Source: Candidatus Moraniibacteriota bacterium (GTDB lineage Bacteria; Patescibacteriota; Minisyncoccia; Moranbacterales; UBA11712). From it: a stretch of 34,127 nucleotides of DNA. Below the pieces are notes generated by a model, which was given only the letters and a program-made list of their open reading frames with translations, was not told the DNA's origin and did not search any database. A program made the position numbers and the translations under genes. Positions 5,543-31,840 of the stretch are shown piece by piece (the stretch's first letter is position 1; every line of letters begins with the position of its first letter). The DNA lies in NCBI GenBank assembly GCA_030679895.1, contig JAUXSN010000039.1, forward strand, positions 1 through 34,127, given 5' to 3'.

Positions 5543-5595
5543 AAACTCAAATCTCAAAACGCAAAGCGCAAAACCACAGCGTAAAATTAAAAACA
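5543..5595 (+). repeat. AT-rich repeat, CAAAGCGCAAAACCACAGC family (copy 1)
   Basis: The spacer after porG is a run of CAAA-type units around the core GCAAAGCGCAAAACCACAGC. The same core is present at 21127-21146 and 28218-28237, and shorter relatives occur inside the ATPase gene (11887-11938) and at the end of the sigma/HARE gene. Confidence 0.75.
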
Positions 5596-10117: not shown

Positions 10118-12913
10118 ATGCCAAAACTAGTATACAATTTGAACGCGGAAGAAGTATTAAAAAAGTATTCAGCGATTTTGGATGGTCTTTCGGATGAAGA
10201 GGCGAAAAAGAGGTTGAGAGAATACGGGTCGAATAGGATTGAGAAAAAGATAGGCTGGCGATGGCTGAAATTGGTCGGCCATCAGTTCAATGACGCGCTG
10301 GTATGGATTCTTTTGGTGGCGGCTGTTTTGGCTTTCGCGTTCGGCGAAATGCGCGACGTGACGATAATTATGGTTATCGTTTTTTTGAACGCGATCATCG
10401 GCTTCACGCAGGAGTGGAAAGCGGAACGGATTATGGACCGGATCCAGAAATTGGCATCGGACAAGGCAACGGTCATACGATCCGGCCGAAAAAAAGAAAT
10501 TGACGCTTCGGAAATCGTGCCGGGGGACATAATCTTCATAACGTCAGGCGACAATGTTCCGGCGGACGGATATATTCTCGAAAGTTATAATCTCCACACC
10601 AACAGTTTTGTTTTCACAGGCGAATCAAAATCGGAGAAAAAAGGAGCCGGAATTGCCACCGAAGAAAATCTGTCGATCGCCGATATCGAAAATATGGTTT
10701 TCACGGGCGAGCAAGTGACGAGGGGGGAAGCAAAAGCGATTGTGACGGGGACGGGGATGAAAACGGAACTTGGAAAAATCGCCAAACTCGCGACGGAAGT
10801 GGCGGATGAACTCACGCCGCTTCAGAAAAAAATGCAGACTTTAGGAAGAGACGTTTCGGTTCTGGCGGTGGCGATCGCGGTACTGGTTCTCGTCGCGGGC
10901 GGATTTCAGCATCTTTCCTGGTATCAAAATTTTCTTTTTGCCTTCGCGGTGGCGGTTTCGGTCGTTCCGGAAGGCCTTCCGGCGGCGATGTCGGTGGCGC
11001 TTTCGCTTGGAATGCGGCGGCTGCTCAAAAACAACGTTCTGGTGAAAAAATTGATCGCGGTGGAAACCTTGGGCTCGGTGAATGTTATTTGCACGGACAA
11101 AACGGGAACGATCACGAAAAATGAATTGATGGTGACGAAAATCGTGTTGGATGAAAAGATCATCGAAGTTGAAGGGGAGGGATACGCGCCTCAAGGCGAT
11201 TTTCTGCTTGATGGAAAAATAGTTGATCCGAAATCGGTAAAAAATCTTGAATTGCTATTGAAAATAGGAGTTTTGTGCAATGACGCAAGTTTATTGCGGG
11301 AAAAAGAAAAATATAAAATAGTCGGCGATCCTACGGAAGGGGCTCTTGTTGTTGCGGCGAGGAAGTTCAGCAATAAGGAAATTTTTTTCGGGGCAGGGGA
11401 GAAGAAAATTGATGAAAATCCTTTTGAATCGGAAAGAATGATGATGAGCGTGATATATGAAAAATCAGAGGCCGAAGGAAAGAAAGACGTGTATTCATAT
11501 GTAAAAGGTTCGCCGGATGTCCTTCTGGGTCTCTCCCCTAAAAAGTTGACTGAAGAGGGGATAGTCCCCTTTTCCAAAGAAGAAAAAAAGAGAACAAAAG
11601 AAATATACGACAGAATGTCAGGTGAGGCGCTTCGGGTTTTGGCTTTCGCCTATCGTCCCGTTAGAAAAAATTTTTCTAACGGGATAAATCCCACCGATAC
11701 AAAAATTTTGACTGACGAATCCGAAAAAGATTTGATCTGGGTCGGGATGATGGCGATGATCGATCCACCGAGAACAGATGTCGCGAAAGCCATTGCAGAA
11801 TGCCAGCAGTCCGGGATAAAGGTGATTATGATTACGGGAGACTATGAAATCACCGGCAGAGCAATCGCGGAGAAAGTAGGGTTGATAACTCAAAGCGCAA
11901 AACTCAAAGCGCAAAACCAAAACTCAAAACAAAAAACTTGCGATGTTATAAATGGCAAGGAATTAGGTAGTTTAAGCGATAACGAGATAATCAAGAGAAT
12001 CAAGAATGGCGTTTCTGTCTTTGCTCGTATTACTCCCGAACAGAAACTTCGCATTGCCACAATTCTCAAAAAATCCGGGGCGGTGATTGCGATGACGGGA
12101 GACGGAGTGAATGACGCGCCGGCGCTGAAGCGTGCCGATATCGGCATCGCGATGGGAATCATCGGAACCGATGTTTCCAAGGAAGCTTCAGATATGATTT
12201 TGATGAACGATGACTTTGCTTCCATCGTGGCGGGGATTAAAGAGGGAAGAACGATATATCAAAATATTCGAAAATTCATTTATTATGTTTTTTCCTCGAA
12301 CTCCAGCGAATTTATGACGGTGATTTTTGGAGCGTTGCTTTTCATCCCGGCACCGATCACGGCGGTACAGATCCTGGCGATTGATCTTGGAACGGACGTT
12401 TTTCCATCGCTGGCTCTCGGGCTCGAACCGGCGGAACCCGGAGCGATGAAAAAAAGACCCTTCGATCCGAAAGAAAGGTTGATCGGTTCGTTTGGCTTTA
12501 GGCGTCTCGTTTATGTCGGCCTCATCATGGCCACAGGCGCCATTGCCGCTTTTCTTTGGTCAATGAAGCGGGGCGGATGGGATTTTGGAGAAAAAATTGA
12601 TTTCAACTCGGCCTTGTATATCAAATCAACGGCAGCGACTTTTGCTGTTCTTTCAATGACCCAGATGGCCAATCTCATTCAAACCAGAAGCGAAAAAATT
12701 TCCGCTTTAAAAATGAGATTTTTCAGCAACATATATCTTATCGGTTCCATTTTCATTTCGATATGCGTCCTTTTTTCTTTTATGTATATCCCCTTCTTCC
12801 AGAAAAATCTTCATATGGCGCCGATAGATTTTTGGGACTGGACGGCAGTTGTGGTGGCGTTTCTGGCAGTTTTCTTTTTTGAAGAAGCGAGAAAAGCGGA
12901 AAAGGCCGGATAA
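10118..12913 (+). CDS. P2-type cation-transporting ATPase
   Basis: The 931-residue protein has an N-terminal cation-ATPase domain (LSDEEAKKRLREYG), the actuator loop with TGES at 167-170, a fourth span with PEGLP at 284-288, the phosphorylated D327 in DKTGT, the nucleotide domain with GDPTEGAL, and MTGDGVNDAP at 659-668. The sixth span has AIDLGTDVFPSLALGLE, closer to the Na,K/H,K-type IDLGTD than to the NLVTDG of most calcium pumps, so the ion (Ca, Na or other) is open. Two repeats lie inside the gene in frame: a 29-bp palindrome coding PVRKNFSNGI (514-523) and a CAAAGCGCAAAAC stretch coding about residues 590-607. Both fall between conserved blocks. Confidence 0.92.
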   Translation: MPKLVYNLNAEEVLKKYSAILDGLSDEEAKKRLREYGSNRIEKKIGWRWLKLVGHQFNDALVWILLVAAVLAFAFGEMRDVTIIMVIVFLNAIIGFTQEWKAERIMDRIQKLASDKATVIRSGRKKEIDASEIVPGDIIFITSGDNVPADGYILESYNLHTNSFVFTGESKSEKKGAGIATEENLSIADIENMVFTGEQVTRGEAKAIVTGTGMKTELGKIAKLATEVADELTPLQKKMQTLGRDVSVLAVAIAVLVLVAGGFQHLSWYQNFLFAFAVAVSVVPEGLPAAMSVALSLGMRRLLKNNVLVKKLIAVETLGSVNVICTDKTGTITKNELMVTKIVLDEKIIEVEGEGYAPQGDFLLDGKIVDPKSVKNLELLLKIGVLCNDASLLREKEKYKIVGDPTEGALVVAARKFSNKEIFFGAGEKKIDENPFESERMMMSVIYEKSEAEGKKDVYSYVKGSPDVLLGLSPKKLTEEGIVPFSKEEKKRTKEIYDRMSGEALRVLAFAYRPVRKNFSNGINPTDTKILTDESEKDLIWVGMMAMIDPPRTDVAKAIAECQQSGIKVIMITGDYEITGRAIAEKVGLITQSAKLKAQNQNSKQKTCDVINGKELGSLSDNEIIKRIKNGVSVFARITPEQKLRIATILKKSGAVIAMTGDGVNDAPALKRADIGIAMGIIGTDVSKEASDMILMNDDFASIVAGIKEGRTIYQNIRKFIYYVFSSNSSEFMTVIFGALLFIPAPITAVQILAIDLGTDVFPSLALGLEPAEPGAMKKRPFDPKERLIGSFGFRRLVYVGLIMATGAIAAFLWSMKRGGWDFGEKIDFNSALYIKSTAATFAVLSMTQMANLIQTRSEKISALKMRFFSNIYLIGSIFISICVLFSFMYIPFFQKNLHMAPIDFWDWTAVVVAFLAVFFFEEARKAEKAG
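11656..11684 (+). repeat. 29-bp perfect palindrome inside the ATPase coding region
   Basis: Arms TCCCGTTAGAAAAA and TTTTTCTAACGGGA surround one central base. The stretch is read in frame as PVRKNFSNGI between the conserved LRVLAFAYR and DLIWVGMMAMIDPPR. The left arm matches the por leader repeat at 4909-4920. Confidence 0.85.
11887..11938 (+). repeat. CAAAGCGCAAAAC-type repeat inside the ATPase coding region
   Basis: Two tandem ACTCAAAGCGCAAAAC units followed by a CCAAAACTCAAAACAAAAAAC tail are read in frame as a Lys/Gln/Asn-rich peptide (SAKLKAQNQNSKQK) between KVGLI and the conserved INGKEL block. It matches the intergenic repeats at 5543, 21119 and 28202. Confidence 0.8.
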
Positions 12914-13372: not shown

Positions 13373-13447
13373 TTTTTCCTAAAGCTAAGCTTTTTCCTTC
13401 CCCGACTATTCATCGGGGAATTCCTCAAAGCTTAGCTTTGGAAAAAA
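13373..13447 (+). repeat. 75-base hairpin repeat in the ispG leader (copy 1)
   Basis: Outer arms: CCTAAAGCTAAGCTTT on the left and AAAGCTTAGCTTTGG on the right. An inner hairpin CCCCGA/TCGGGG lies between them. A second copy at 14511-14586 has the same outer arms and the same AATTCCT, but a different inner stem that still pairs. The element ends two bases before the ispG start codon. Confidence 0.8.
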
Positions 13448-13449
13448 AT

Positions 13450-14505
13450 ATGATCAAGCGAAAAAAAACCAGAAAAATAAGAGTCGGCAATTTATTTATC
13501 GGCGGGGATGCGCCGGTGGCGGTGCAGTCGATGACAAACACGAAGACGAGTGATGTCGCGGGAACCGTAAGGCAAATAAAACAACTGGAAAAAGCCGGCT
13601 GTGAAATTATTCGAGTGGCGGTGCCGGATATGGAATCGGCAAAAGCCTTAGGAAAGATAAAGGAAAAAATTGGCATCCCCCTTGTGGCCGATATCCATTT
13701 TTCCCATCTCCTGGCGCTTGAAGCGATCAGTCAAGGAGTTGACAAACTTCGGATTAATCCGGGGAACATCGGTTCGGAAGAAAAGGTGAGACAAGTCGTG
13801 AACGCTTGCAAGAAGAAAAAAATTCCGATCCGAATCGGAATCAACGGAGGCTCGCTTGAAAAAGATATTCTCGCGAAATATAAAAAAAAAGTGACGGCGG
13901 CGGGAATGGTCGAGTCGGCGATGAGGCACATAAAAATTCTTGAGAAACTGAATTTCAAAGATATTATTATTTCGCTCAAAGCTTCTGACATTGAGCGAAC
14001 AGTTGAAAGTTATAAAATGCTCTCAAAAAAAATGAATTATCCTTTGCACCTTGGCATCACCGAAGCCGGAACAATGTTTCGGGGAACGATAATGTCGTCG
14101 ATTGGAATAGGGCATTTGCTTTATGAAGGTATAGGCGACACGATTCGGGTTTCGTTGACAGCTGATCCGGTCGAAGAGATGAAAGTGGCCTGGGGAATTT
14201 TGCAATCCCTTGGTTTGCGAAGGCGCGGAGTCACGGTGACGAGTTGTCCGACTTGCGGACGGACAAAAATCGATCTCATCAGCCTTGCGAAAAAAGTGGA
14301 AAAACTTGTTGAAGGAATTGATAAGAATATCCACGTGGCGGTGATGGGATGCGTGGTGAACGGTCCCGGTGAAGCGCGCGAGGCGGATCTGGCGGTCATC
14401 GGCGGTGAAGGCGCAGGCCTCATTTGCAAAAAAGGAGAAATCATCAAAAAAGTGGATGAAAAAAATTTGCTCAAGGAGTTTATGAAGGAGATTAAGAAAT
14501 TTTAA
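13450..14505 (+). CDS. ispG: 4-hydroxy-3-methylbut-2-en-1-yl diphosphate synthase
   Basis: ATG 13450 is the natural start (MIKRKKTRKIRVGN); a GTG far upstream would read through the terminator and repeat. The 351-residue protein has the TIM-barrel start GDAPVAVQSMTNT, IPLVADIHF, LRINPGNIG, and the cluster domain with CPTCGR (C266, C269) and MGCVVNGPGEA (C301, E308), the expected [4Fe-4S] ligands. IspG (GcpE) makes HMBPP, the penultimate step of the MEP isoprenoid pathway, with electrons usually from ferredoxin or flavodoxin. The ferredoxin at 8442 is a possible donor (inference). The stem-forming repeat directly before the ATG leaves no SD. Confidence 0.94.
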   Translation: MIKRKKTRKIRVGNLFIGGDAPVAVQSMTNTKTSDVAGTVRQIKQLEKAGCEIIRVAVPDMESAKALGKIKEKIGIPLVADIHFSHLLALEAISQGVDKLRINPGNIGSEEKVRQVVNACKKKKIPIRIGINGGSLEKDILAKYKKKVTAAGMVESAMRHIKILEKLNFKDIIISLKASDIERTVESYKMLSKKMNYPLHLGITEAGTMFRGTIMSSIGIGHLLYEGIGDTIRVSLTADPVEEMKVAWGILQSLGLRRRGVTVTSCPTCGRTKIDLISLAKKVEKLVEGIDKNIHVAVMGCVVNGPGEAREADLAVIGGEGAGLICKKGEIIKKVDEKNLLKEFMKEIKKF

Positions 14506-14510
14506 TTGTG

Positions 14511-14586
14511 TTTTCCCTAAAGCTAAGCTTTTTCCTTCCGGCAAACTAATTGCCAGAATTCCTCAAAGCTTAGCTTTGGAAAAAAT
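14511..14586 (+). repeat. 76-base hairpin repeat in front of polX (copy 2)
   Basis: The outer arms match copy 1 (13373-13447); the inner stem is GGCAA/TTGCC instead of CCCCGA/TCGGGG. It starts five bases after the ispG stop and ends one base before the polX start codon. Confidence 0.8.
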
Positions 14587-14587
14587 T

Positions 14588-16294
14588 ATGCTCAACTTCA
14601 AAATCGCGAAAATTTTTTCGGAGATGGCGGAATATTATACGATGAAGGGCGACCAATTCCGGCCGCGGGCGTATGAAAAGGCGGCGCGGCTAATTGAATC
14701 GATGGACGAAGATCTTGAGGATATATATAAAAAATCCGGCGTGAAGGGGCTCATGGCAATCGAAGGCGTGGGAAGGGGGATGGCCGAGCATATCGAAGAG
14801 TTTGTGAAGACAGGGAAGATCAAAGTTTTTGAAAAACTCAAAAAAGAAGCTCCTCTCGACCTCGAGAGCTTCTCGGCCGTGGAAGGCGTTGGGCCGAAAA
14901 TGCTTTTAGCATTATACAAAAATCTTGGCGTAAAAAATATCCGCGATCTTGAAAAAGCGGCGAGAAAGGGGAAGGTGCGGACTCTCCCCCGCTTCGGTGA
15001 AAAAACGGAGGAGAATATTTTGCGCTCGATCGAAATGTCGCGCGAGCACCGGGGCCGGTTTTTGCTCGGGTTTGTCTCCCCCATCATTTCAAAAATTGAA
15101 AAAGATCTCGCCTCTTCCGCCGGCGTCCAAAAAGTTTTGGCTTGTGGATCTTTTCGGCGCCGGCAGGAAACCATCGGGGACATTGACCTTTTGGCCGAGG
15201 CGAAGGATTCCCGTGCGGCGATGGAATACTTTGTGTCGATGCCGAATGTTGAAAAAGTTTTGGCGCATGGCGAAACGAAATCAGCGGTGCGCCTCGACAT
15301 CGGAATTGACGCGGATTTGCGAGTGGTGCCGGAAAAATCTTTCGGGGCGGCGCTTCAATATTTCACCGGGAGCAAAGACCATAACATAGAACTTCGCAAA
15401 ATCGCGATAAAGAAGGGATGGAAGCTGAATGAATACGGCTTGTTTGATAAAAATAACCGGCAAATCGCCGGCCGGACCGAAGAAGAAATTTATAAAAAAC
15501 TCGGCCTCGACTGGATGCCGCCGGAGATGCGGGAAAACCGGGGCGAAATCGAACTGGCGCAAAAACATAAACTCCCGAAAATCGTCGAATACGGCGAAGT
15601 TATTTCAGATCTTCAGATGCACACGACTTATTCTGACGGCGCTCATACGATCGAAGAAATGGCGCGAGAAGCCCAAAGGCTGGGGAGAAAATATATCGCG
15701 ATCACTGACCACGTCGGGCATCTCAAAATCGCGGGAGCGATGGACGTCGCGACAATTGAGCGGCAATGGAGGGAAATCGAAAAATTAAATAAGAAACTTA
15801 AAAATATAAAGATTCTCAAAGGCTGCGAAGTGGATATTAATCCCGACGGCACGATCGCGCTTGAGGATAAATATCTGGCGAAATTCGATGTCGTCATTGG
15901 CGCGATTCACTCGAATTTCAAAATGGAAAAAAATGAAATGACCAAGCGCTTGATTCGAGTCATCGAAAATTCCCATATTGACATCATTTCCCATCCCACC
16001 GGGCGGATAATCCATCGCCGAGCGGGATATGAGTTTGACTTTGAAGCGATCTGCAGGGCGTGCGTTAAAAGCAAAACAATCCTTGAAATAAATACTTATC
16101 CCGATCGGCTGGACTTGAACGATGTGAATATCCGGCGGGCGATCGAATATGGCGTGAAATTGTCCCTTGGCACGGATGCCCACAGCAAGAATCAACTGCA
16201 CTATCTGGAACTCGGCATCGCGCAAGCGCGCCGCGGATTTGCGACAAAAAAAGACATCTTGAATTGTCTGGAAGTGGAAGAACTTTTGAAATAA
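14588..16294 (+). CDS. polX: Family X DNA polymerase with PHP exonuclease domain
   Basis: ATG 14588 (MLNFKIAKIFSEMAEYY) is chosen; an upstream TTG at 14576 lies in the repeat. The 568-residue protein has helix-hairpin-helix segments (MAIEGVGRGMAEHI, FSAVEGVGPKML), a nucleotidyltransferase core with GDIDLLAE (D198, D200) and the third aspartate D243, and FTGSKDHNIELR. A C-terminal PHP domain has DLQMHTTYSDG (H345), AITDHVGHL, EVDINPDG, ISHPTGRI and GTDAHS. Bacterial PolX fills short gaps and trims ends during base excision repair; the PHP domain gives metal-dependent exonuclease and AP-endonuclease activity. All catalytic residues seem intact. Confidence 0.93.
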   Translation: MLNFKIAKIFSEMAEYYTMKGDQFRPRAYEKAARLIESMDEDLEDIYKKSGVKGLMAIEGVGRGMAEHIEEFVKTGKIKVFEKLKKEAPLDLESFSAVEGVGPKMLLALYKNLGVKNIRDLEKAARKGKVRTLPRFGEKTEENILRSIEMSREHRGRFLLGFVSPIISKIEKDLASSAGVQKVLACGSFRRRQETIGDIDLLAEAKDSRAAMEYFVSMPNVEKVLAHGETKSAVRLDIGIDADLRVVPEKSFGAALQYFTGSKDHNIELRKIAIKKGWKLNEYGLFDKNNRQIAGRTEEEIYKKLGLDWMPPEMRENRGEIELAQKHKLPKIVEYGEVISDLQMHTTYSDGAHTIEEMAREAQRLGRKYIAITDHVGHLKIAGAMDVATIERQWREIEKLNKKLKNIKILKGCEVDINPDGTIALEDKYLAKFDVVIGAIHSNFKMEKNEMTKRLIRVIENSHIDIISHPTGRIIHRRAGYEFDFEAICRACVKSKTILEINTYPDRLDLNDVNIRRAIEYGVKLSLGTDAHSKNQLHYLELGIAQARRGFATKKDILNCLEVEELLK

Positions 16295-18109: not shown

Positions 18110-18132
18110 ACTTGGAAACTAAGTTTCCAAGT
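18110..18132 (+). repeat. RAYT-linked 23-bp palindrome, upstream copy (central A)
   Basis: Arms ACTTGGAAACT and AGTTTCCAAGT surround one central A. Identical arms occur at 18612, 18810 and 27245. Confidence 0.92.
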
Positions 18133-18159: not shown

Positions 18160-18807
18160 ATGAGCATGAGAAAAACACAGTTGGCTGAAGGAGAATATTA
18201 TCATATTTTTAACCGCGGGGTGGACAAGCGGGAAATATTCAGCGATCTGATCGACAGGCAAAGATTCTTTCAAAGTATGGATGAATTCAATACGCTCGAT
18301 CCGATCGGCAGCATATACGAAAATTTTTTTCGCGACAGAAAAGAAAAAAATAAATCCAAAAAGAAGCTGGTTGGTTTCGTGTGTTATTGCCTGAACCCAA
18401 ACCACTATCATTTTATTCTCAAACAAACAGCCGAGCAAGGAATAGAAAAATTCATGCATCGCCTCGGAGTGGGTTATACAAAATACTTCAATAAAAGACA
18501 CGAGCGCTCCGGCTCCCTTTTCCAAGGCACCTTCAAGGCAGTTCATATAAAATCAAACTCTTATTTTTTCCACTTGAGCGCGTATGTCAATCTCAACAAC
18601 AGGGTTCATTCACTTGGAAACTTAGTTTCCAAGTCGATGTCGAGCTGGCGGGGATATACGGATAATTTTTCAGAGAAGACGTTTTGCGGGGAAAAGCGCG
18701 TAATTTTGGATGACTTCAAAAATGGCGAGGATTATCGAAAATTCGCGGAGGAATCGCTGATTTCCATAAAAGAGAAAAAGGAGATGGAAAAATTGCTAAT
18801 TGAATAA
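18160..18807 (+). CDS. REP-associated tyrosine transposase (Y1 HUH, RAYT/TnpA_REP)
   Basis: About 215 residues (213 if ATG 18166 is used). The N-terminus reads GEYYHIFNRGVDKREIF, typical of RAYT proteins. The HUH metal site is in NHYHFILK (H82, H84) and the catalytic tyrosine region in GVGYTKYFNKRHERSGSLF (Y106 or Y109), followed by QGTFKA. Such enzymes nick single-stranded hairpins and are thought to spread REP palindromes; they are usually single-copy and domesticated. Here the same palindrome stands upstream, downstream and within the gene, where it encodes SLGNLVSKS near the C-terminal third without breaking the frame. Confidence 0.9.
   Translation: MSMRKTQLAEGEYYHIFNRGVDKREIFSDLIDRQRFFQSMDEFNTLDPIGSIYENFFRDRKEKNKSKKKLVGFVCYCLNPNHYHFILKQTAEQGIEKFMHRLGVGYTKYFNKRHERSGSLFQGTFKAVHIKSNSYFFHLSAYVNLNNRVHSLGNLVSKSMSSWRGYTDNFSEKTFCGEKRVILDDFKNGEDYRKFAEESLISIKEKKEMEKLLIE
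18612..18634 (+). repeat. RAYT-linked palindrome inside the RAYT gene (central T)
   Basis: The same arms with a central T, read in frame as LGNLVSK. With central A this frame would contain TAA, so only this orientation keeps the gene open. Confidence 0.92.
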
Positions 18808-21094: not shown

Positions 21095-21118
21095 TTTCTT
21101 AGAAAATTTAGCGAAAAA

Positions 21119-21211
21119 TGCAAAATGCAAAGCGCAAAACCACAGCTTAAAGCGTAAAAATAGTTTTGAGTTTTACGCTATAGCTTTGCACTTTGAGTTT
21201 TGAACTTTGAG
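21119..21211 (+). repeat. Hairpin-forming CAAAGCGCAAAACCACAGC repeat between secD and secF
   Basis: Outer arms TGCAAAGC (21126-21133) and GCTTTGCA (21183-21190) and inner arms AGCGTAAAA (21151-21159) and TTTTACGCT (21171-21179) make a long imperfect hairpin. The left side has the core shared with 5543 and 28202; the right side is its inverted form (CTTTGAGTTTTGAACTTTGAG). Confidence 0.82.
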
Positions 21212-22394: not shown

Positions 22395-23510
22395 ATGGAA
22401 GAGCAGCCTGTTCAAATCATCCTAAAAGAGTCCGGATCGCAAAAAATACCGGTCAAAGAAATTACGGCCAAGTCATTGATTGAAGATCTGCTTCAACTTC
22501 TTAGCGCGAAGCAAAAACTGGTCATTGGCAGCCGTTTTGGCATTTCCGGCGGCGAGCCGAAAACTCTCGAAGCCATTGGCAAGAATCTGAACATCACCCG
22601 GGAAAGAGTGAGGCAGATCGAAGCTGATGCCATAAAAGCGCTGAAAAAAACGCGAAAAAGCGCGGAATTTGAGAAGCTCATTTTCGATATAAAAGAAATT
22701 ATCCGTGAAAAAGGCGGCATTTCTTCAAGAGATGAGTTGTCCGCCGACGTTTTCGAAAAGTTTTCCGAAAAAAAGAATTTTTCCCCGGATGAAGCCAGAG
22801 GCCTTGAAATTGCCTTTTTTATCGCCGATCTGAAAAGGAACAAAGGAAACAAGGAAACAATTGATTCCTGGACCAGTCCCGATTTTGACCGGAAACTGTT
22901 CCGCGACGCGACCTTGGCGCTCGAAAATATTTTTGATAATTCGAAAAAACTCTTTAGTCCCGAGGAAATACTTCGAAAACTGGAGTATTCTGATTTCAAG
23001 AAAAAATATCCCGGCGCCACGCCTGAACAAATCCTCAATTTTTTGAGCGTATCGAAAAAATTCGGAAAAAATGTATTCGGGGACTGGGGGAAAGCCAGAT
23101 GGCCGCTTATCCGGCCGCGAGGAGTGAGAGAAAAAGCCACGCTGGTTCTGATGAAAAAAGAAAAGCCTATTCATTTCCGCGAGATCAGCCGGCTGATTGA
23201 AGAATACGGCATGAGCCAGAAAAAGGTGCATCCCCAAACCGTCCACAACGAACTGATTCGCGACCAAAGATTTGTCCTTGTGGGGCGGGGAACCTACGCG
23301 CTTCGTGAATGGGGATACGAAGAAGGAACGGTGAAAGACGTCATAATTTCGCTTATCAAGTCGGCTGGCGGGTTTTTGAAAAGAGAAAACTTGGTCAGCG
23401 GAGTTTTAAAGAAAAGGAAAGTCAAAAAAGCCACGATATCAGTCAATCTTTCGGATAAAAATGTTTTCGAAAAAGTGAAAGACGGATACACATTAAAAGC
23501 GCAAAACTAA
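22395..23510 (+). CDS. Sigma-70 region 4 plus HARE-HTH protein
   Basis: ATG 22395 (MEEQPVQIILKE) is chosen; a TTG at 22377 lies in the hairpin. The 371-residue protein has a region-4 helix-turn-helix at about 30-85 (LSAKQKLVIGSRFG, then TLEAIGKNLNITRERVRQIE), which in sigma factors reads the -35 box. Regions 2 and 3 are absent. A charged middle part follows, and at about 244-310 a HARE-HTH domain (REKATLVLMKKEKPIHFREI, VHPQTVHNELIRDQRF, GRGTYALREWGYEEG), also found in RNA polymerase delta, ASXL and restriction enzymes. It is probably a transcription regulator binding DNA or RNA polymerase. The last codons (LKAQN) come from a dispersed repeat. Confidence 0.82.
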   Translation: MEEQPVQIILKESGSQKIPVKEITAKSLIEDLLQLLSAKQKLVIGSRFGISGGEPKTLEAIGKNLNITRERVRQIEADAIKALKKTRKSAEFEKLIFDIKEIIREKGGISSRDELSADVFEKFSEKKNFSPDEARGLEIAFFIADLKRNKGNKETIDSWTSPDFDRKLFRDATLALENIFDNSKKLFSPEEILRKLEYSDFKKKYPGATPEQILNFLSVSKKFGKNVFGDWGKARWPLIRPRGVREKATLVLMKKEKPIHFREISRLIEEYGMSQKKVHPQTVHNELIRDQRFVLVGRGTYALREWGYEEGTVKDVIISLIKSAGGFLKRENLVSGVLKKRKVKKATISVNLSDKNVFEKVKDGYTLKAQN

Positions 23511-23538
23511 AAATTAAAAACTAAAAATTAAAAATTTT
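23492..23538 (+). repeat. CAAAGCGCAAAAC-family repeat at the 3' end of the sigma/HARE gene
   Basis: ATTAAAAGCGCAAAACTAAAAA is followed by ATTAAAAACTAAAA repeats. Its first part encodes the last residues TLKAQN and the stop codon. The rest of the spacer to 23603 has palindromic scraps (GCTCGC, and GATTTTATC...ATAAAAT) but no gene. Confidence 0.65.
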
Positions 23539-24872: not shown

Positions 24873-24875
24873 TTT

Positions 24876-24894
24876 CCTAACATTCGATGTTAGG
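24876..24894 (+). repeat. CCTAACAT/ATGTTAGG palindrome
   Basis: Arms CCTAACAT and ATGTTAGG surround TCG in the 30-base gap before the VirD4-like gene. The same arms recur at 31817-31835. Confidence 0.8.
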
Positions 24895-24902
24895 CGAACA
24901 AT

Positions 24903-26654
24903 ATGGAAAAAATCACCACTTTCGCCAAAACCAATTTCCGGGGACAAGACCGGGCTTTCGGCATCAAGATGGATGACCGCCGCCGGCATTTTTACGTGGT
25001 GGGAAAAACCGGAACCGGAAAGACGACTATGATCCAGAATATGGCCATTCAGGATATTCAAAACGGCCATGGCGTGGCGGTTGTCGATCCCCATGGAGAA
25101 TTTGCCGAAACTATCATCAAGGCCATTCCCTCCAGTCGGATAAACGACGTTATCTATTTCAATCCGGCCGACCAGGAATATCCCATCGCCTTCAACGTCA
25201 TGGAAAAGGTGGACACGGAATACCGGCATCTTATCGCTTCGGGACTTGTCGGGGTTTTCAAAAAAATCTGGGCGGATTCCTGGGGGCCGCGCCTTGAATA
25301 TATCCTGCGAAACGCCATTCTCGCTCTTCTTGAATATCCGGGCAGCACGCTTTTGGGCGTTACCCGCATCCTGGTTGATAAAAATTATCGGGCGCGCGTC
25401 GTCGAAAAAATAACCGATCCCGTCGTCAAGTCTTTCTGGGTGGATGAATTCACGCAATGGAACGACCGGGTGCTCCAGGAAGTCATTTCTCCGATCCAGA
25501 ACAAGGTCGGGCAATTCCTTTCCAGCGCTCTTATCCGAAACATTGTCGGCCAGACCAAGTCGGCTTTCAATATCCGGGATCTGATGGATGAGGGGAAAAT
25601 ATTGATTATGAATCTTTCCAAAGGCCGGATCGGAGAGGACAACAGCGCCCTTCTCGGAGCGATGATGATCACCAAGATCCAGCTCGCGGCAATGGGCCGG
25701 GTGGATATTCCGGAAGACCAAAGAAAGGATTTTTATCTCTATGTCGATGAATTTCAGAACTTTGCCACGGATTCTTTCGCCAATATTCTTTCCGAGGCCA
25801 GAAAATATCATCTCAATCTGATTATCGCCCATCAATATATAGGCCAGCTGGTGACGGACACTTCAACGAGGGTGCGGGACGCCGTTTTCGGCAATGTCGG
25901 GACGCTCTGCGCGTTCCGGGTCGGAGCGGAAGACGCGGAATTTCTGGAAAAAGAATTCGAGCCAGTTTTTGTGATCCAGGATCTGGTGAATCTTCCCAAT
26001 CGCAATATTTATATCAAGCTGATGATAGACGGATTCACGGGAAGCGCTTTTTCGGCGACGACGCTTCCCCCGATCGATCTCGCGCCAACAAAGCAAAATG
26101 AGGAAAAAGTGATCCGCATAACCCGGGAACGATATGGAACGGAACGGAAAATCGTGGAAGAAAAAATCGCCCGCTGGAGCGGCATGATAACGGAAAAAGA
26201 TCTGGAGAAAGCAGCCGTAAAAAGCGAAAATAAAGTTGTGAGAGAAACAAAAAATCCCCCAAGAAAAGCCAATACGGCGAGTGCTCCTGTTGTGGAAAAG
26301 AAGGGCGACCAAACAATGTATCCGGCCAAATGCGCCACCTGCGAAATGGACATTGAAGTTCCTTTCAAGCCGGATGGCAGCCGGCCGACTTTCTGCAAGG
26401 ATTGCCTCAAGGATTATCAGCGCCAGCAGGCCAGGATCCAGGATGTCAAATCGCAAAAAGGAGAAAAAGCGGATAAGCGGCCGTTTTCGGATCGGACAGG
26501 AGGAGCGCGGCGTCCCGAACCGCGGAGGATTTCTTTGAACCAGGCCGCCAGAATGGCTCCCCGCCCCTTCAGAGAAAATCGAGAGAGGCAAAAAAAACAG
26601 GTGAATCTTACGGAAGTAAGAGCATTAATAAAAGAGAGTTTGAACTCGAAATAA
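24903..26654 (+). CDS. VirD4/TraG-like ATPase with C-terminal zinc ribbon
   Basis: The 583-residue protein has Walker A GKTGTGKTT (34-42), VAVVDPHGEFAE, Walker B FYLYVDEFQNF (D282, E283), then LIIAHQYIGQL and FGNVGTLCAFRVGAEDAE, matching the type IV coupling-protein/HerA-FtsK class of DNA-pumping ATPases. No transmembrane segment is evident, so it may depend on the upstream membrane protein. After the ATPase a linker leads to a zinc ribbon with C477-x2-C480 and C498-x2-C501, then a basic tail rich in Arg and Lys, good for nucleic-acid binding. Without relaxase or pilus genes it may serve DNA uptake, segregation or secretion; this is unknown. Confidence 0.85.
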   Translation: MEKITTFAKTNFRGQDRAFGIKMDDRRRHFYVVGKTGTGKTTMIQNMAIQDIQNGHGVAVVDPHGEFAETIIKAIPSSRINDVIYFNPADQEYPIAFNVMEKVDTEYRHLIASGLVGVFKKIWADSWGPRLEYILRNAILALLEYPGSTLLGVTRILVDKNYRARVVEKITDPVVKSFWVDEFTQWNDRVLQEVISPIQNKVGQFLSSALIRNIVGQTKSAFNIRDLMDEGKILIMNLSKGRIGEDNSALLGAMMITKIQLAAMGRVDIPEDQRKDFYLYVDEFQNFATDSFANILSEARKYHLNLIIAHQYIGQLVTDTSTRVRDAVFGNVGTLCAFRVGAEDAEFLEKEFEPVFVIQDLVNLPNRNIYIKLMIDGFTGSAFSATTLPPIDLAPTKQNEEKVIRITRERYGTERKIVEEKIARWSGMITEKDLEKAAVKSENKVVRETKNPPRKANTASAPVVEKKGDQTMYPAKCATCEMDIEVPFKPDGSRPTFCKDCLKDYQRQQARIQDVKSQKGEKADKRPFSDRTGGARRPEPRRISLNQAARMAPRPFRENRERQKKQVNLTEVRALIKESLNSK

Positions 26655-27118: not shown

Positions 27119-28201
27119 ATGGATTCTAAACGTAAAAAAATTGTCGTCGCGCTTTCCGGCGGGGTGGACTCGGCGGTGGCGGCGGCGCTGCTCAAAAAAC
27201 AGGGATACGATGTCATTGGTGTTCATTTTATCTTCACTAAGCGCACTTGGAAACTAAGTTTCCAAGTGAAGGAAATGGCCGAAAAGCTGGGAATTCCGCT
27301 CAAGATTGTTGACGCGCGCAAGGAATTTCAAAAGCGGGTAATCGATTATTTTGTTTCTTCCTATAAAAAAGACCTCACGCCCAATCCGTGCGTGGTTTGC
27401 AATAAGGAAATGAAATTTCGGTTGCTTTTTGATTTGATGAAGAAGCTTAAAGCAGATTGTGTGGCGACGGGACATTACGCGCGAATTTCTAAAAATCCCA
27501 ATTTCAAAATCCAAATGTCAAATCAAATCCAAAATCCAAAATCTGAAAAAATATTTACGCTTCTTCAGGCGGTGGATAAGCAAAAAGATCAATCATACTT
27601 TCTTTATAGATTAACGCAAAAAGATTTATCGAAAATTATTTTTCCGCTGGGAAATTATACGAAAGTTGAAGTCAAGAAAATTGCCAGGAAGCTTCGGCTG
27701 CCAATTTCGGATGGCGAGGAATCGCAGGATATTTGTTTTTTGCAGAACCGGGATATAAGCTCATTTTTGAAAAAATATATAAAACCCAATCCCGGAAACA
27801 TTACAGATAAAAAGGGAAATATACTTGCGCGTCACAAAGGCTTGCCGTTTTATACCATTGGCCAGCGAAAGGGAATCGCAATTGGAGGGACGGGACCGTA
27901 TTTTGTGGTTGGAAAAAATGCGCGAAAAAATGAGTTGATCGTGACAAATGATGAAAAAAAGCTGAATTCAAAAAAATTCGAAGCGACGCGGGCCAATTGG
28001 ATCAATAAGGGAATAAATCTGCCGCTTAGCGCCAAAGTCCAAATTCGCTACCATGCCGATAAATTTCCTGCTATAATAAAACCAGGAAGATCGGGGAACT
28101 TGATCATTGAAACCAAAAAACCGCTTCGGGCGGTGACGCCCGGGCAATCAGCCGTTTTTTATAAAAATAACGAAATTTTAGGGGGCGGTATAATAATTTA
28201 A
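27119..28201 (+). CDS. mnmA: tRNA-specific 2-thiouridylase MnmA with repeat-encoded segments
   Basis: The 360-residue protein has the PP-loop ALSGGVDSAV, the tRNA-binding and catalytic NPCVVCNKEMKF with C94, TGHYARI, KDQSYFLYRL, ESQDICFL with C206, and the C-terminal GQRKGIAIGG and PGQSAVFY. MnmA makes 2-thiouridine at the wobble position of tRNA-Lys, Glu and Gln. Residues 43-50 (TWKLSFQV) are encoded by the RAYT-linked palindrome and fill the variable loop before AEKLGIP; a second repeat encodes about residues 126-143 (NPNFKIQMSNQIQNPKSE) between HYARI and the next conserved block. Both keep the frame and all catalytic residues remain, so the gene is probably active. No SD; a TATAAT overlaps the start codon. 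Confidence 0.92.
   Translation: MDSKRKKIVVALSGGVDSAVAAALLKKQGYDVIGVHFIFTKRTWKLSFQVKEMAEKLGIPLKIVDARKEFQKRVIDYFVSSYKKDLTPNPCVVCNKEMKFRLLFDLMKKLKADCVATGHYARISKNPNFKIQMSNQIQNPKSEKIFTLLQAVDKQKDQSYFLYRLTQKDLSKIIFPLGNYTKVEVKKIARKLRLPISDGEESQDICFLQNRDISSFLKKYIKPNPGNITDKKGNILARHKGLPFYTIGQRKGIAIGGTGPYFVVGKNARKNELIVTNDEKKLNSKKFEATRANWINKGINLPLSAKVQIRYHADKFPAIIKPGRSGNLIIETKKPLRAVTPGQSAVFYKNNEILGGGIII
27244..27268 (+). repeat. RAYT-linked palindrome inside mnmA (central A)
   Basis: The 23-bp palindrome (27245-27267), extended by a C/G pair to 25 bp. It is read as TWKLSFQV. It is over 8 kb from the RAYT gene. Confidence 0.92.
27493..27547 (+). repeat. CAAATCCAAA-type repeat inside mnmA
   Basis: A run of AAATCC, CAAAAT and TCAAAT units, read in frame as an Asn/Gln/Lys-rich peptide. 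It resembles AT-rich intergenic repeats of many bacterial genomes and sits in a loop of the protein. Confidence 0.7.
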
Positions 28202-28275
28202 GCGCAAAGCTAAAAACGCAAAGCGCAAAACCACAGCTTAAAGCGCAAAAATTTGAAAAGCTTTTAGTTTTAGTT
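28202..28275 (+). repeat. CAAAGCGCAAAACCACAGC repeat after mnmA
   Basis: It starts at the base after the mnmA stop codon and has the core GCAAAGCGCAAAACCACAGC followed by TTAAAGCGCAAAAAT, almost identical to the left half of the secD-secF copy. It ends in an inverted TTTTAGTTTTAG. It fills the gap to the next gene. Confidence 0.82.
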
Positions 28276-31766: not shown

Positions 31767-31805
31767 AGGCCATGGCTCCATTCCGGAACTATGGCCTATT
31801 TTTTT
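31767..31805 (+). terminator. Intrinsic terminator of the gene at 31060
   Basis: AGGCCAT (31767-31773) pairs with ATGGCCT (31791-31797), followed by A and seven T residues. It separates this gene from the convergent phosphoesterase. Confidence 0.82.
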
Positions 31806-31816
31806 GGCTATCTTTC

Positions 31817-31835
31817 CCTAACATTGAATGTTAGG
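31817..31835 (+). repeat. CCTAACATT/AATGTTAGG palindrome between convergent genes
   Basis: Perfect 9-bp arms surround a central G. The same family as 24876-24894. It lies five bases beyond the stop of the - strand phosphoesterase gene. Confidence 0.8.
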
Positions 31836-31840
31836 AAGTA

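Follow-up and report, generated by a model that had tools for sequence, protein, structure and literature searches.

A RAYT-linked, mostly intragenic system of REP-like palindromes in conserved genes of Candidatus Moranbacteria

Known palindromic repeats and the present locus

Among the closest described systems are those formed by REPs and RAYTs (E. coli yafM, Stenotrophomonas REPtrons and Pseudomonas REPINs). RAYTs are flanked by inverted, co-evolving REPs, whose palindromicity is kept via paired changes (PMC2817692). RAYTs that are inherited vertically can nevertheless go on replicating REPINs (PMC8049555). In vitro work has demonstrated recognition of REPs (PMC8266576). Intragenic REPs are also listed in PMC3733652; R. 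conorii RPE-4/6 and O. terrae GTAG REPs are among them, and many lie in genes for replication, repair or tRNA. For the Rickettsia palindromic elements (RPEs), PMC3767692 reports sites shared between orthologues and leaves a hotspot explanation open, and PMC6649704 states that RPEs lose repeat identity over time.

The window analysed here (the whole 34,127-nucleotide stretch) belongs to a genome of ~1.03 Mb (G000) from Candidatus Moranbacteria (Patescibacteria), and holds copies of a short palindrome, family A, at a RAYT-like gene and in mnmA (Table 1). Like REP/RAYT systems, it combines a palindrome-flanked Y1/HUH gene and a RAYT-specific palindrome with paired arm changes (PMC2817692) and a vertical RAYT (PMC8049555). 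Family A differs in having no GTAG head, in lying mainly within genes and in the presence of a palindrome inside the RAYT ORF; moreover, conservation of the RAYT here exceeds that of its neighbours, in contrast to the faster evolution reported in PMC2817692. The GTAG/CGTC REPs (Di Nocera 2013, PMC3733652) are similar in being short, in occurring within replication, repair and tRNA genes (uvrB among them), and in having REP-flanked RAYTs, and different REPs lie at about one site in Xanthomonas recB. However, most of them lie between genes and bear a GTAG or CGTC tag, and the available parts of that account describe no RAYT-internal copy and mention no Patescibacteria. No GTAG lies beside the family-A stem, and a search for a GTAG-like guide tetranucleotide beside 37 copies found no conserved 5' motif, only a G/A preference at +1/+2.

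RPEs and the Wolbachia WPEs are likewise palindromes read in frame within conserved proteins, where they encode solvent-exposed parts; orthologues have sites in common, and a WPE and eRPE-4 share a biotin ligase gene region (PMC3767692, PMC2229807). A preliminary description of the mnmA palindrome had drawn this comparison with RPEs, which the analysis supports: family A is repeated, in frame and tied to a RAYT, and such palindromes lie in conserved proteins such as UvrB and MnmA, the latter keeping its catalytic residues (below). Classical RPEs nevertheless measure 100–150 bp, compared with family-A units of 23 bp and doublets of 36–42 bp. They have no transposase association in the accounts as available, whereas family A is RAYT-linked, and they lose identity (PMC6649704) where the copies here stay perfect or change in concert. 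The coding palindromes of Nematomorpha mitochondria are also perfect inverted repeats thought to be actively maintained, but they are mitochondrial, reach 284 bp and have no cognate transposase described in the available parts of PMC6649704. The literature searched described neither these palindromes in Patescibacteria nor any RAYT gene containing a REP, a negative result that does not prove their absence elsewhere. The novelty first proposed is narrowed by the intragenic REPs, including those of Opitutus, already reported in PMC3733652; we could not find prior descriptions of a RAYT-internal copy, of concerted change at shared coding sites, or of individual loops being hit by different palindrome families in the majority of a family's species.

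Table 1. Features of the window that bear on family A
Feature	Position	Strand	Evidence
Family-A palindrome upstream of RAYT start	18110..18132	.	Arm matches
RAYT-like Y1 (IS200-type HUH) transposase, cognate of family A; HUH motif NPNHYHF	18160..18807	+	Pfam Y1_Tnp 3e-6; 28-sequence alignment
Family-A palindrome inside RAYT ORF, read as SLGNLVSKS	18612..18634	+	Arm matches, in-frame check
Family-A palindrome just 3' of RAYT stop codon	18810..18832	.	Arm matches
mnmA, tRNA 2-thiouridine(34) synthase, 360 aa, intact	27119..28201	+	Pfam PF03054 5e-64; NCBIfam NF001138 389 bits (cutoff 284); AF2 pLDDT 91.4
Family-A palindrome in mnmA, encodes T43-V50 (TWKLSFQV)	27244..27268	+	Arm matches; same codon in G002, G006, G007

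Family A in mnmA and across the genome

The mnmA copy, CACTTGGAAACTAAGTTTCCAAGTG, has perfect 12-base arms around one central base (25 bases in total), and as a single strand it folds at -10.6 kcal/mol (z = -6.0). Its in-frame reading as TWKLSFQV was confirmed, as was the claim that catalytic residues are kept: MnmA retains the SGGVDS motif, C94 and C206, and key positions are invariant among 38 aligned MnmAs. In the AlphaFold2 model (mean pLDDT 91.4), residues 43–50 follow strand 31–38 and start helix 43–57, with an average pLDDT of 79 for block 41–50.

In alignments of the palindrome sites across eight genomes of the family, four species from two genera have this copy at an identical codon position. 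The G006 mnmA has the identical 24 bases, G007 has ACTTGGAAACCGAGTTTCCAAGT (TWKPSFQV), and G002 has ACTTGGAAGCCGAACTTCCAAGT (TWKPNFQV), in which the arms show a paired A-T to G-C change. The relatives without the palindrome encode other peptides here, as the preliminary description anticipated, but the same-codon copies mean that the element is not genome-specific. The proposal of an in-frame insertion was not upheld as worded, as there is no net insertion relative to G003 (PWGEKTADV) or G004 (SRTSSFQA). The element thus occupies a variable loop without clear net length gain; it is a replacement, or an insertion that was then trimmed, because the G003 and G004 loops (9–10 residues) are unrelated to the palindrome-encoded loop but about equal to it in length. 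Given a partial match, AGTTTTCAAGCG (SSFQA), G004 may retain an eroded copy. Loops in G001 and G005 are longer and different.

In the window, the exact 11-base arm has eight matches, forming four palindromes (at 18110, 18612, 18810 and 27245), and nine matches with ≤1 mismatch against 0.79 expected. The arms are therefore common to the mnmA copy and three at the RAYT, as first described, except that one of the three lies inside the RAYT frame rather than around the gene. The whole-genome search for repeats that had been suggested found 14 exact copies of the 23-base core and 20 with ≤1 mismatch (reversed control, 0); the form is ACTTGGAAACT[A/T]AGTTTCCAAGT. Counts for G000 cover 989 of 1028 kb (joined regions), and other genomes were sampled only. 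Perfect palindromes with arms ≥11 and a 1-base centre numbered 47 in the 989 kb, against 0–1 in Markov controls.

Family A is not mainly extragenic: 16 of its 20 copies lie inside called coding sequence, counts that are approximate as the gene caller marks only 82% of the 989 kb as coding (fraction 0.82), and the copy at 18110, scored as coding solely through an over-long RAYT start, is probably 5' untranslated. Host genes in G000 include topA, dnaX, pheT (two sites), ruvX (two copies), smc, miaA, elp3 and ychF, together with genes for a ROK kinase and a CapA-like protein; gene names not backed by a family search were assigned from sequence motifs. The remaining stop-poor families were also largely coding, namely B (TGGAAG-N5-CTTCCA, 16/21 copies), C (CCCAATTGGG doublets, 4/4), D (TCGAGGT-N3-ACCTCGA, 9/10) and E (4/6), whereas the stop-rich families F1 (CCTAA..TTAGG) and F2 (CC[CT]AACAT..ATGTT[AG]GG) had 5 of 59 and 2 of 20 copies in coding sequence, respectively. 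In family A, an A centre gives TAA in phase 2 and a T centre gives TAG in phase 1. All 12 A/T-centred intragenic copies in these phases had the stop-free orientation (chance 2.4e-4, with the 18110 copy left out), which is consistent with indiscriminate arrival followed by reading-frame selection.

Outside called genes, family-A copies at L013 (~1501) and L092 (~2497–2564) sit at a seemingly orthologous place, the flanks being alike in G000 and G006. No known RNA was matched when loci holding non-coding copies were scanned against Rfam, and this place could hold an unknown RNA or leader. The window has further repeats. Near-identical blocks (29 and 40 nt, 95–97% identical) with AAAGCTAAGCTTT and AAAGCTTAGCTTT, at 13373–13457 and 14511–14595, are direct repeats 1138 bases apart flanking an ispG-like gene. 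An inverted pair with CCTAACATTCGATGTTAGG (24874–24913 and 31798–31837) belongs to a palindrome family that is rich in stops, lies mostly between genes and is related to the palindromes that accompany another RAYT (G000:C27, L053). A non-palindromic, mostly intergenic repeat of the AAAGCGCAAAACCACAGC type occurs at 5549–5586, 11892–11929, 21115–21152, 23496–23533 and 28206–28243.

The RAYT and its palindromes

The window RAYT scored 27.7 bits against Pfam Y1_Tnp (cutoff 23). Among 28 homologues, N80, H81 and H83 are invariant and the tyrosine of the GYTKYFNK region (Y108) is conserved at ≥90%, making it a candidate catalytic residue. A profile search of the RAYTs against PDB found no relative. 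The window RAYT did not match NCBIfam REP_Tyr_transpos (NF047646), for which the G009 homologue reached 31 bits, under the cutoff of 80; because this cutoff was not reached, we assign the window RAYT to a divergent RAYT-like group.

Five RAYT-like genes were found in G000, and the palindromes flanking the window RAYT (18110 and 18810) recur elsewhere as the 20 genome copies. In 19 of 28 RAYTs across the order, the core of the palindrome that flanks the gene is found again within it, in frame (≤2 of 17 mismatches), near residues 53–72 or 150–154, both variable stretches of the alignment. Copies upstream, inside and downstream of the RAYT were seen in G000, G006 and G009. The system is real, RAYT-linked and mostly intragenic, with self-copies in the transposase gene, and is more general than first stated.

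RAYT and mnmA are syntenic, ~9 kb apart, in G000, G006 and G002. Among these genomes the RAYT is 92% and 86% identical, above its neighbours and the highest of any protein in the region, with a silent-site identity of 0.62–0.65 compared with ~0.47 nearby. The protein is thus strongly conserved, perhaps with some recombination as well. G003 (98% complete) had no RAYT match yet carries at least five family-A copies, and the G007 assembly (86% complete) had no cognate RAYT; both have some family-A copies with mismatched arms. Decay of copies after RAYT loss was considered on account of these imperfect arms but is not proposed here, as G002, with an intact RAYT ORF, also has imperfect copies. Coding palindrome density in RAYT-positive compared with RAYT-negative 20-kb samples gave p = 0.056.

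Gain, turnover and origin of coding palindromes

Some coding sites differ in length between relatives. At the palindrome, uvrB of G006 has 14 additional codons (42 bp, the length of a doublet) relative to G003 and G007, so that the YE-to-VEQ spacing is 21 residues rather than 7. An uncharacterised G006 protein has gained 8 residues at its palindrome site, dnaX 5 and smc 11. At pheT site 2, ychF and murI only ~1 residue is gained, and mnmA gains practically none, so trimming or replacement must also occur.

Where sites are shared, G000 and G006 palindromes match at 202 of 207 positions against 2454 of 3114 in flanking codons, with 23/23 bases identical at seven sites while nearby silent sites are ~50% identical. 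The corresponding values for sites shared with G002 are 104/138 and 1513/1947. At six of these (mnmA, ROK, pheT site 2, ruvX twice and a glycosyltransferase, the last shared with G006), G002 carries its own variant (GAAG..CTTC or GAAG..TTTC), positioned at the codons used in the other genomes and changed in a paired manner in the two arms. This points to concerted evolution, through interlocus homogenisation or same-base re-insertion, because independent drift would not yield such variants.

The same loops also hold other palindromes. Where genomes have no family A at a family-A loop, other palindromes with arms ≥8 occurred in 26 of 83 windows (31%), compared with 20 of 490 controls taken from those genes (4%; p = 2.2e-12), and at pheT site 1 such a palindrome is present in 7 of 8 genomes, nearly all different. 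G005 has its own family, TGGAGAT..ATCTCCA, often as doublets, in smc, topA, capA-like, murI, pheT and ruvX (L196, L151, L168, L221, L195, L208), at loops holding family A in other genomes. Separately, the DnaX proteins of G004 (L130) and G007 (L209), from two genera, resemble each other in a long insert, ADLVGEERAATKS...SIRRSDAKAD, located in the loop where G000 and G006 hold a palindrome; it is possibly a larger intragenic repeat.

We consider it probable that the mnmA palindrome is a RAYT-mobilised, REP-like family-A element, that stop-poor families live in genes and that their copies are homogenised as DNA. Family A would be a non-autonomous element spread in trans by the window's HUH/Y1 RAYT, which we infer to be the mover, probably as a single-stranded hairpin. 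Arrival would be largely indiscriminate, and a copy would survive within a gene only if in frame, stop-free and in a tolerant surface loop, so that stop-poor families would build up in coding sequence while stop-rich ones stay intergenic. Existing copies would still be homogenised by RAYT-mediated replacement or gene conversion, and shared coding sites would therefore keep matching the genome's current palindrome version. The family-A copies in G003, the absence of the cognate RAYT from the G007 assembly, the density comparison at p = 0.056 and the missing GTAG-like guide count against this explanation, and plain insertion does not explain the sites without net length gain, mnmA included.

Static functional DNA sites, for example for RAYT, nucleoid or recombination binding, could also be held by purifying selection on DNA, with the G002 covariation as co-evolution with a changed binding protein and no mobility. 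Such sites would account for the seven fully identical G000/G006 copies and for the conservation of the RAYT, but this reading is unlikely given the many species-specific sites (smc, miaA, elp3 and ychF in G000; uvrB in G006), the clean 42-bp gain in uvrB, the unrelated families at the same loops in sister species and G001, of the same genus, in which no family-A copies were found. The shared mnmA codon in two genera, the RAYT–mnmA synteny and the mismatched arms in G003 and G007 would instead suit an insertion that took place long ago in a common ancestor and was then simply passed on vertically, leaving the mnmA copy as an inactive fossil. We regard this as very unlikely, since drift cannot give the same multi-base variant, paired in both arms, at six G002 sites, nor full identity where silent positions have diverged. 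Signals for DNA uptake or Chi-like recombination, which genome-maintenance genes are also known to contain, would fit the mostly coding copies in replication, repair and tRNA genes. Uptake signals, however, number hundreds to thousands per genome, against only ~20 copies of long self-complementary units here, which are both associated with a transposase gene and present within it, and which differ in sequence by lineage, making this origin highly improbable.

The in-frame copies in conserved genes and in the RAYT gene itself suggest that mobile palindromes repeatedly rewrote surface loops of housekeeping proteins in the Moranbacteria group. More tentatively, each RAYT might keep its own palindrome in its gene and rewrite matching coding palindromes in place, such that housekeeping loops evolve in concert with its preferred sequence and are recycled between unrelated families. 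The system bridges the literatures on RAYT/REP and Rickettsia coding palindromes, offers a testable case of concerted evolution within coding sequence and provides a candidate transposase for intragenic palindromes, none being named in the RPE accounts as available. If true, recurrent hits would flag permissive loops in TopA, PheT, DnaX, SMC, UvrB, MiaA and MnmA, and a vertically kept transposase with its palindromes would have contributed loop sequence to conserved Patescibacteria proteins on a large scale.
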